From the NCBI GenBank assembly GCA_028820935.1, contig JAPPHZ010000031.1, positions 1 to 64,000 on the forward strand: a stretch of DNA of 64,000 nucleotides, written 5' to 3'. Positions within the stretch are counted from its first letter, which is position 1. Each line of letters begins with the position of its first letter. The translations under genes and the position numbers were made by a program. The notes beneath the pieces are model-generated. The model worked only from the letters and a program-made list of their open reading frames with translations, was not told where the DNA came from and searched no databases. Shown piece by piece: positions 30,731-33,212 of the stretch. The stretch comes from a bacterium. Lineage in GTDB: Bacteria; Actinomycetota; Acidimicrobiia; Spongiisociales; Spongiisociaceae.

Positions 30731-31929
30731 TGTCCGGCGCCCACGCCCCGACCCCTCCGCTCCGGATCCGGGGCGTGTCCTGGCTCGACACCGCCACCGG
30801 CGAGTCACAGGCGCGTGACCTGTTTGTCCAGGACGGGACCATCCTGGCCGGAGACAGCGGCGCGGGGAGAACCGTGGACGGCTCGGGCCTGCATGCCATG
30901 TTCGGCTTGTGGGATTGCCACGCCCACGCCGGCGGGCTGATGTACGACCCGGACGCCACCGGCTACTTCGAGGCGGCCCCCGATCGGACCATCCGCGCCG
31001 GAGAGAACTTCCGCCGGGCTGCGGAAATGGGCGTCACCGGGGTGCGGTGCGTAGACGAGGCCGATGACCTGGACCTGGCCTGGGGCCGTGCCTACGCCGC
31101 CGGCACCACGCTCGGACCCCGGGTGACCGGCGCCGGGCGAGGCATCCGCACCACGGGCGGCCACGGCACCGCCTTCCCGCGGGTCTACACCCAGATGGGC
31201 GCCGAACTGGTGGTCGACGGACCGGATGCGATGGCCCGGGCGGTCCGGCGCCAGGTTGAGCGAGGCGCGCACTGGATCAAGATCATGCTGACCGGCGGTT
31301 TGTACAGCCCCTTCGAAGCGGCCGACGAGGGCCAGTTCACCGACGCCGAGTTGGCGACCCTGATGGAGGTGGCCAACCAGCGCCACATACCGGTGGCGGC
31401 CCACTGCGGGGGCAACGAACCCGCCATCGCCTTCTCGGAGTTGGGCGGGCGCTCCATCGAGCACGGTTACATGCTCGACGAGCAAGCCGCCGTGGTGATG
31501 GCCCGGAACGGCACCTGGCTGGTACCCACCATCGGCGTGACCCACGACCAGGAATACATCCAGAGCCAGGGCTGGCCGGAGCACGCCGCCAACCGGTCCC
31601 GGGAGCTGATGCCCGTCCACGCCGCCGCCCTCCAGGCGTGCATCGAGGCGGGTGTTCAGGTTGCCGTCGGCGCCGACCTGAACCCGATCGGGCCACGCTT
31701 CCACCGGGAGCTCGAGATGCTGGAGAGGGCCGGCATGGACAGGCGGTCCGTGCTCCACGCTGCTTCTGTGGGCGGCCGGGCGCTCAACGGACTCGGCCAC
31801 TGCTCGACACCCGATCCGGGTGCGGTAGCCGACCTGATCCTGGTGGAAGAGAACCCGATGTCGTCGCTGGAGACGCTGAGAGAGCCGGTTGTCGTGATCG
31901 CCCACGGCCGGATGGTCTACCAGCGCTGA
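30730..31929 (+). CDS. Amidohydrolase family protein, prolidase/imidazolonepropionase-like
   Basis: 399 residues from the ATG at 30730, sharing one base with the HyuB stop (TAATG). Metal-binding H-x-H in LWDCHAHAGG, a likely carbamylated or bridging Lys in WIKIMLTGG, His residues in AAHCGGNEP and IEHGYML, and the catalytic Asp in GADLNPIG follow the amidohydrolase order. Last gene of the hydantoinase-transport operon; it probably completes hydrolysis of the opened product, an inference from position. Confidence 0.82.
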   Translation: MSGAHAPTPPLRIRGVSWLDTATGESQARDLFVQDGTILAGDSGAGRTVDGSGLHAMFGLWDCHAHAGGLMYDPDATGYFEAAPDRTIRAGENFRRAAEMGVTGVRCVDEADDLDLAWGRAYAAGTTLGPRVTGAGRGIRTTGGHGTAFPRVYTQMGAELVVDGPDAMARAVRRQVERGAHWIKIMLTGGLYSPFEAADEGQFTDAELATLMEVANQRHIPVAAHCGGNEPAIAFSELGGRSIEHGYMLDEQAAVVMARNGTWLVPTIGVTHDQEYIQSQGWPEHAANRSRELMPVHAAALQACIEAGVQVAVGADLNPIGPRFHRELEMLERAGMDRRSVLHAASVGGRALNGLGHCSTPDPGAVADLILVEENPMSSLETLREPVVVIAHGRMVYQR

Positions 31930-32006
31930 CTCCCAGGATCCTCCCGCTCGAACATCCGGCTGCGCTGCCGCCGGCGTGACTGCCGGCACGGGTTCGGCCG
32001 GCGTGG

Positions 32007-32012
32007 TACACT
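32007..32012 (+). promoter_or_regulatory. Predicted -10 box for the riboswitch-led transcript
   Basis: TACACT fits an actinobacterial -10 box and would start RNA at about 32019, just before the structured leader. A clear -35 box is not visible upstream. Confidence 0.4.
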
Positions 32013-32024
32013 CTCTCCAAAGAC

Positions 32025-32080
32025 AGCGCCGATTTGATCAGTCAGCTTGCGGGCGCTCTAGAAAACCAGCTAAAGCGACC
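32025..32080 (+). ncRNA. SAM-II-like riboswitch aptamer candidate
   Basis: The order of conserved blocks matches the SAM-II (metA-motif) aptamer: P1 arm AGCGCC (32025-32030), GATTTG (32031-32036), GCTTGC (32045-32050), P1 return arm GGCGCT (32052-32057, six perfect pairs), an A-rich linker (GAAAA) and GCTAAAG (32069-32075). The pseudoknot would pair AGCT of the loop with AGCT at 32068-32071, extended imperfectly. It lies 107 bases before a homocysteine S-methyltransferase, a usual target of SAM control. Confidence 0.6.
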
Positions 32081-32105
32081 GGGCGTTTCCACAGGAACAG
32101 CTCAT

Positions 32106-32133
32106 GGGGCCGCAGAAGCTGGGCGGCCCCTTT
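32106..32133 (+). terminator. Attenuator-like hairpin after the aptamer
   Basis: GGGGCCGC (32106-32113) pairs perfectly with GCGGCCCC (32123-32130) and is followed by TTT. The loop end AGCTGG (32117-32122) is complementary to CCAGCT (32066-32071) of the aptamer, so aptamer folding and this hairpin could be linked. Confidence 0.55.
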
Positions 32134-32186
32134 CTCGTGAAGGAGCCCTTCAGGGCATCGGCATCCTGGCGGAAGCGGAGGAGGCC

Positions 32187-33212
32187 GTGTCCTCATCGAA
32201 CCACATTGCGAACACATCGCTCGATCGATTGCTCTCGGAGGCGCCCATCCTGGTGGCCGACGGGGGCCTGGGCACCAGCCTGTTCGCGTTAGGAATGCCG
32301 CCGGGCGCCTGTCCCGAGTTGCTGAACGTGGAGTGTCCGGAGATGGTGATGGAGGCACACTCGGGCTTCCTCGAGGCGGGATGCGACATCGTCCTCACCA
32401 ACACGTTCGGAGCCAACCGGCGACGGCTCACCTTGCATGGACTCCAGGACCGGGTTGCTGAGCTCAACCTGGCTGCCGTGGCGCTGCTCCGGCGGCTGGC
32501 GGGCCGTCGCGGGCGACCCGTCGCGGTGGCAGGGAGCGTCGGACCCACGGGTGATCTGCTAGCACCCCTCGGCCCGCTGGAGCATGGCGCCGCCGTCGAG
32601 GTTTTCGGAGAGCAGATCGACGCTCTCGTGCGCGGTGGCGTCGACGTGGTCTGGATAGAGACCATGTCGAGCCGGGAGGAACTGGAAGCGGCCTACGAGG
32701 CGGCCCGGTCGTTCCGGGCGCCGGTCGTGACCACGATGAGCTTCGACACCCACGGCCGGACCATGATGGGTTTTCGTCCCGAGCAACTGGCCGCCTGGAG
32801 CCGCGCCCAGGCCGTCCTTCCGGCAGCGGTGGGGGCCAACTGCGGCGTGGGCGCCGGCGACGTGGTGCTTGCCGTGAGCGAGTTGGCCAAGGCGGACCCG
32901 GGAACGGCCATCGTGGCCAAGGCCAACTGCGGCCTGCCCGCCTACACCGAGGGAAACCTGTCCTATCCCCATGGCCCCGAGATCATGCCTACCTACGTCG
33001 AGCTGGCCATCCGGGCGGGAGCGCGGTTGATCGGCGCCTGTTGCGGAAGCGGACCCGGACACATAGCCGCCATCAGGGAGGCGGTCGATTGCACGCGTCC
33101 CACCCGAAGGGTCACCCGCGAGGAGATCGCTCGGCGCCTTCCCCACGCACCACGCCCGTCCCGTCCCGCCACGGCCCATCGCGAGCGCCGCCGCCGGGTC
33201 ACCAGGACCTGA
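32187..33212 (+). CDS. Homocysteine S-methyltransferase family protein
   Basis: 341 residues of the Pfam homocysteine S-methyltransferase/BHMT fold, a zinc-dependent TIM barrel that methylates homocysteine to methionine. The zinc ligands are visible: Cys in GANCGVGAG and the Cys pair in IGACCGSG. ADGGLGTSLFALG opens the barrel. GTG 32187 follows GGAGGAGG; an in-frame upstream start at 32034 would run through the predicted riboswitch and is rejected. Methyl donor (S-methylmethionine, betaine or SAM) is not readable. Confidence 0.85.
   Translation: MSSSNHIANTSLDRLLSEAPILVADGGLGTSLFALGMPPGACPELLNVECPEMVMEAHSGFLEAGCDIVLTNTFGANRRRLTLHGLQDRVAELNLAAVALLRRLAGRRGRPVAVAGSVGPTGDLLAPLGPLEHGAAVEVFGEQIDALVRGGVDVVWIETMSSREELEAAYEAARSFRAPVVTTMSFDTHGRTMMGFRPEQLAAWSRAQAVLPAAVGANCGVGAGDVVLAVSELAKADPGTAIVAKANCGLPAYTEGNLSYPHGPEIMPTYVELAIRAGARLIGACCGSGPGHIAAIREAVDCTRPTRRVTREEIARRLPHAPRPSRPATAHRERRRRVTRT

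Follow-up and report, generated by a model that had tools for sequence, protein, structure and literature searches.

A SAM-II riboswitch as a probable transcriptional OFF switch of a split methionine synthase gene in Acidimicrobiia

Introduction

SAM-II riboswitches have been described from Alphaproteobacteria, a few other Proteobacteria and Bacteroidetes, and were reported to be lacking in Gram-positive bacteria (PMC1273637, PMC2258182). The DNA studied here carries the motifs of this class ahead of a homocysteine methyltransferase gene, best read as mtgE, and the genus mates of its host are catalogued as Acidimicrobiia (Actinomycetota), in agreement with the apparent actinobacterial host named in a preliminary description of the sequence. 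Is this element a genuine SAM-II riboswitch, by which mechanism would it act, and which reaction would it control? We address these questions in the window, i.e., the whole 64-kb stretch of DNA that was analysed, and in related genomes. Among the open-access papers listed by our searches, we found no report of SAM-II in Acidimicrobiia or other Actinobacteria; the full member list of Rfam may already hold such sequences uncommented. The riboswitch class itself is known and, as far as we checked, the novelty lies in the host range, in the target and in the comparison of expression platforms among relatives.

A SAM-II aptamer at the start of the leader

The element located at 32016-32094 on the plus strand is a genuine member of the SAM-II class. 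Indeed, the Rfam model RF00521 (SAM_alpha, i.e., SAM-II) matches this whole span with 46 bits, for a gathering score of 36 and an E-value of 3.5e-7, and in a cmscan against all Rfam families it is the single match above curated score in the entire window. The SAM-V model, which the preliminary description had also proposed to run, gave no match, nor did the other SAM classes, even at E-values up to 10 in a permissive Rfam search of 31700-32400. As the score exceeds the Rfam cut-off and the element is conserved in the genomes of 37 relatives, the class assignment first made by eye is upheld and a chance match is rejected.

In the Rfam alignment, the 5′ strand of P1 (AGCGCC, 32025-32030) pairs with its 3′ strand (GGCGCT, 32052-32057). 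The motifs of the ligand core follow in order, i.e., GATTTG at 32031-32036, GCTTGC at 32045-32050 and GCTAAAG at 32069-32075. All of them, as well as the GC hairpin followed by TTT further downstream, lie where they had been reported. The pseudoknot P2 comprises P2a, in which AGC (32044-32046) pairs with GCU (32069-32071), and P2b, in which UCAGUC (32038-32043) pairs with GACCGG (32077-32082), as deduced from pair counts in relatives. This RNA would be expected to bind SAM.

On the minus strand, the Burkholderia sRNA family Bp2_287 (RF02424) matches 31986-32133 with 31 bits, for a cut-off of 70, and this match was rejected. In reverse complement, the consensus of this family looks like a SAM-II leader with its terminator, so the family may be SAM-II filed on the wrong strand.

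A putative extended -10 element (TGgTACACT, 32004-32012, plus strand) was recognized by eye, at the distance from P1 that would be expected, and in relatives. The pattern TGnTAnnnT also occurs 12-16 nt upstream of P1 in ten loci (L001-L004, L006, L012, L014, L015, L018 and L024). A sigma-70 promoter scan gave nothing above threshold and no -35/-10 pair. From this putative element, transcription would start at about 32018-32020, directly upstream of P1.

Conservation and covariation of the aptamer

The bases of the GAUUUG, GCUUGC and GCUAAA motifs are invariant or nearly so across 38 loci. In 34 loci, 31 aligned columns show no variation, mostly in P1 and the ligand core, and the proteins encoded downstream of these loci fall to about 52% identity with that of the window.

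Pairing was counted over 31 distinct rows from relatives. All six P1 pairs form in the window and 98.4% of cells are paired in relatives; P1 is near-invariant, one pair out of six changing, and as it hardly varies, it adds little covariation. The three P2a pairs are kept (98.9% of cells). For P2b, 71% of cells are paired, and four of the six pairs present changes on both sides in some genomes. The pseudoknot had been described as imperfect, and it is: five of the six P2b pairs form in the window, the mismatch being A32040 x C32080. The pair at this position also fails in 20 of the 31 rows and, being unpaired in most relatives, this mismatch characterizes the clade and does not indicate decay.

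Several controls were applied to these pairings. When the pairing partners are shifted, the paired cells drop from 88% to 32-39%. Moreover, exchanging P2b strands among genomes lowers the pairing, and 232 of 20000 permutations equal the native strands. Against column shuffles the covariation of the pseudoknot is modest, since 12 of 500 shuffles reach its score, and the counts of pair types are not significant. Covariation in homologous leaders, the check suggested at the outset, thus appears to give moderate support to P2, and P1 contributes its single changing pair.

Distribution and origin of the leader

The window genome, assembled in 51 contigs (3.3 Mb), contains one SAM-II only. RF00521 is present in 33 of 149 relatives. 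Of the 395 genomes searched in the class, 31 have it, and these all belong to the order of the window; in a sample of 396 genomes of the phylum it was found in the window's genome only. A custom covariance model, built from 34 loci that are all among those it later matched, finds 37 of 198 relatives, always in this one order and ahead of the same gene; it adds four loci, upstream of that gene, which were not among the matches of the Rfam genome search. When named genomes were scanned, the clade-specific core pattern was also seen in two Acidimicrobiia bins (WTGI01000059.1 and VXRE01000060.1). An mtgE homologue lies downstream in all riboswitch genomes. Two near relatives, G009 and G014, have neither the gene nor the riboswitch, and roughly nine genomes (genus g36, G045, G123) have the gene without the riboswitch. 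No SAM-IV was detected above cut-off in the 139 relatives searched. The retention of SAM-II across one actinomycetotal order widens the known range of the class.

One could ask if the element is a degenerate or look-alike structure, for instance a transferred relic that has ceased to bind SAM, as its imperfect pseudoknot with the A x C mismatch and its confinement to one order would allow. We consider this most improbable: nearly all bases of the ligand core are among the 31 columns that stay invariant while the proteins diverge, and the element is kept in 37 genomes and is missing together with its gene in G009 and G014.

Some other loci were observed in the course of these searches. Genome G111 carries two near-identical SAM-II copies on two contigs and a third SAM-II-like copy (L276, G111:C494:2546-2609, minus strand) upstream of a transporter-like ORF; the core of the latter is damaged (GCAAAG, GAATTG) and it is probably a relic. 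In another genome of the Actinomycetota (G497, locus L265), a SAM-I riboswitch (RF00162, 58.8 bits) stands ahead of the homologue of the window gene, so that genes of this kind are found with more than one type of SAM sensor. The SAM-II core pattern is also seen in a contig binned as Planctomycetota (L102, bin J052), which could be a binning error.

As for the origin of the leader, the proteins of the riboswitch-bearing Acidimicrobiia form one clade in the tree (support 94/100), adjoining alphaproteobacterial homologues. The leader may be old or may have been acquired by transfer, but the alphaproteobacterial genomes do not point to a co-transfer of SAM-II and its gene: among the 28 that were sampled and possess a homologue, none has a SAM-II above the Rfam cut-off near it. 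One of them (L248) presents a SAM-II-like core on its locus by a looser pattern. In the named-genome scan, for which we read the ORFs ourselves, the proteobacterial SAM-II loci precede other genes (metX-, metZ- and metH-like, among others). In the Alphaproteobacteria bin CO36404bin_6 (L229), a SAM-II leader with a hairpin, very like those of Acidimicrobiia, stands before MetH; the isolate name of this bin resembles that of an Acidimicrobiia bin, CO36387bin_10.

Expression platform

Downstream of the aptamer, the RNA can form an intrinsic-terminator-like hairpin (32106-32135, plus strand), recognized by folding and in relatives. It is composed of the arms GGGGCCGC (32106-32113) and GCGGCCCC (32123-32130), the loop AGAAGCUGG and the tail UUUCU (TTTCT in the DNA), with a stem of -17.4 kcal/mol. 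A strict consensus terminator scan, in which five T in eight are required, did not list this hairpin, whose U tail is short.

A competing structure is predicted by minimum free energy folding. The segment CCAGCUAAAGCGACC (32066-32080, plus strand), on the 3′ side of the aptamer and overlapping its ligand core, would act as the 5′ strand of an antiterminator of 11 bp. Its partner, GG-CGC-AGCUGG inside 32107-32122, belongs to the 5′ arm and loop of the hairpin. The predicted pairs join 32066-32071 with 32117-32122, 32075-32077 with 32111-32113, and 32079-32080 with two G of the run at 32106-32109. The preliminary description had pointed to CCAGCT and AGCTGG as a switching path; both are indeed complementary (the first of these three blocks), but the path is longer, and they make up only the outer part of the antiterminator. 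Another candidate found by eye, in which the loop CAGCUUGCGG would pair with CCGC-AG-AAGCUG, was rejected as the folding chose another structure.

Transcripts ending at 32122 or 32126 and folded unconstrained adopt P1 and the antiterminator as their minimum free energy structure, and the 60-nt antiterminator segment reaches -22.7 kcal/mol (z -2.46). The terminator results once the 3′ arm of the hairpin is complete or when the aptamer is forced. Since the antiterminator occupies the P2 strand of the aptamer and most of the 5′ arm of the terminator, P2, antiterminator and terminator are mutually exclusive. At full length, the terminator is the favoured structure whether the aptamer forms or not, and read-through must therefore be kinetic.

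The comparison of relatives gives a similar picture. Most of them have a hairpin and a T-rich tail at the matching place, and the 3′ strand of their aptamer is complementary to the 5′ arm and loop of their own hairpin, in differing sequence; in L015, L018 and L024, for instance, GCUAAAGCG of the aptamer pairs with CGCUUUAGC as antiterminator. Over 19 lineages, native antiterminator pairings surpass those obtained by swapping, and 5 of 20000 permutations equal them. Taken lineage by lineage, the comparison of native with swapped pairings gives p 0.07 with an uneven margin, and only about half of the lineages show a complementarity significantly above that of shuffled loops. Four relatives (L020, L023, L152 and L185) have no recognisable terminator. 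The clade thereby presents the expression platform in well over a dozen different sequences, from which the antiterminator/terminator logic of SAM-II can be deduced by comparison. By folding and comparison, the leader would constitute a transcriptional attenuator, with a terminator and a mutually exclusive antiterminator.

Such a layout had been taken for an unusual version of SAM-II. The layout itself holds and is re-made across the order, but transcriptional control is not unusual in this class: SAM-II is most often found with terminators (Barrick and Breaker 2007, PMC2258182), and terminators together with a promoter just before P1 were noted by Corbino 2005 (PMC1273637). Control at the ribosome site also exists, namely for SAM-II of metX and of S. 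meliloti metA (PMC10907184, PMC9373788). This precedent, the weak U tail and the four relatives without a clear terminator would fit a true SAM-II with its main effect on translation or on the stability of the RNA, in which case the GC hairpin would be a bystander or a pause site. We hold it to be unlikely, because the Shine-Dalgarno sequence GGAGGAGG (32177-32184, plus strand) lies about 95 nt downstream of the aptamer, outside it, because hairpins with T-rich tails recur at matching places in most relatives, and because the pairing of the antiterminator persists across changes in its sequence. The leader is most likely an OFF switch that acts at transcription.

In SAM-II, P1 fits both states and only P2 switches. 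The same would apply here, P1 being compatible with both states. In the absence of SAM, CCAGCUAAAGCGACC on the 3′ side of the aptamer would pair with the 5′ arm and loop of the downstream hairpin, and, once this antiterminator is formed, the polymerase would continue into mtgE. With SAM, this strand would be kept in P2, the hairpin GGGGCCGC/GCGGCCCC would form, and transcription would end ahead of mtgE.

The target gene and the split methionine synthase

The downstream gene (32187-33212, plus strand) has a GTG start, located 93 nt past the RF00521 span, and encodes a homocysteine S-methyltransferase module of 341 aa. The family is the one given in the preliminary description, and the target can be refined to the MtgE subunit of a split methionine synthase. 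The product matches PF02574 with 212 bits and the NCBIfam equivalog NF005718 (PRK07534, betaine-homocysteine S-methyltransferase) with 374 bits, for a cut-off of 338. The latter match would favour a stand-alone betaine-homocysteine methyltransferase with no role as a module of a split synthase. By whole-sequence similarity, on which this comparison rests, the nearest solved structures are on the contrary the homocysteine domains of MetH (1q7m, E 5e-46), far ahead of human BHMT (about 1e-13). Moreover, the S. meliloti homologue, also called Bhmt, has been argued to be an MtgE lacking the betaine-binding residues (Mausz 2025, PMC12478193).

The gene content of the genome points in the same direction. 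Profile searches of the window genome found no full MetH, the best separate pieces scoring about 146 bits for a cut-off of 1011, and no MetE above cut-off; the MetH-like pieces sit on separate ORFs. Elsewhere in this genome lies an operon, mtgC-DUF1638-mtgD-ramA-mtgB-metF (G000:C26:3500-14500, L272), whose products are a B12-binding protein (PF02310), a DUF1638 protein, a pterin-binding protein (PF00809), a RamA/RACo-like activase, an MTTB-family methyltransferase (PF06253) and a MetF paralogue (MTHFR). Separate Hcy, B12 and pterin modules without a full MetH are thus all found in the window genome, as in the split methionine synthases described before (Price 2018, PMC5764234; Mausz 2025, PMC12478193). 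In three relatives (G047, G023 and G049), the genes for the B12, DUF1638, pterin and RamA proteins are found 4-9 kb from the gene that carries the riboswitch. A full MetH is rarer in riboswitch genomes, 3/37 against 41/101 for the others of the order (tallied by hand; Fisher p 1.7e-4 with kinship ignored). Because no full MetH or MetE was found and the partner operon is present, we prefer to read the gene named betaine-homocysteine methyltransferase as MtgE, the homocysteine-binding part of a B12-dependent methionine synthase that is split into subunits. Given these partner genes, including the MTTB-family one, a stand-alone enzyme seems to us quite improbable, somewhat more so than translational control. 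The L272 operon, an MtgBCD-type set in an Acidimicrobiia, also holds a Rieske oxygenase and an RpiR-type regulator.

Altogether, we consider it probable that, in this Acidimicrobiia genome, a SAM-II riboswitch at the very start of the mtgE mRNA turns off the transcription of one subunit of a split, B12-dependent methionine synthase. The class, the conservation, the association with the gene, the complementarities and the gene set of the split synthase were established by computation, whereas SAM binding, termination and the link to betaine are inferred. With the target read as MtgE, SAM-II sits on the methionine-specific module. In Ruegeria, MtgC and MtgD are common to methionine synthesis and glycine-betaine demethylation (PMC12478193), so a switch placed on mtgE alone would lower methionine synthesis and spare the use of betaine. 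The attenuator may therefore govern only the MtgE part of a dual-use corrinoid methyltransferase, so that SAM, through the choice of subunit, would shift methyl groups away from methionine synthesis and towards the breakdown of betaine, in a phylum from which SAM-II had not been described; to this broader proposal we give equal weight for and against. With this system, one could test directly how a methyltransferase common to methionine synthesis and glycine-betaine breakdown is steered via its one unshared module.

Comparison with known systems

The leader resembles the alphaproteobacterial SAM-II, such as those of A. tumefaciens metA and S. meliloti metZ, by P1 and the pseudoknot P2, by the GAUUUG/GCUUGC/GCUAAA core, by a putative start just before P1, by a terminator-like hairpin past P2 and by the methionine gene downstream (PMC1273637, PMC2258182, PMC9373788). 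It differs from them by its host, by a nearly fixed P1 (GCGCC/GGCGC) and by its target, mtgE instead of metA, metX or metZ. The SAM-II/SAM-V leader of Pelagibacter bhmt is likewise a pseudoknotted SAM riboswitch ahead of a homocysteine methyltransferase (PMC2704228), but there SAM-II is in tandem with a SAM-V, which is missing here; moreover, SAR11 has a Bhmt of the human type and is devoid of MtgC (PMC12478193). With the SAM-IV riboswitches of other Actinomycetota, the element shares the position of a SAM sensor upstream of methionine genes, in an unrelated fold. Finally, the gene set is like the MtgBCDE systems of Phaeobacter and Ruegeria, with separate Hcy, B12 and pterin modules and RamA-like and DUF1638 proteins (PMC5764234, PMC12478193), whereas here it is actinomycetotal and its mtgE carries a SAM-II leader.
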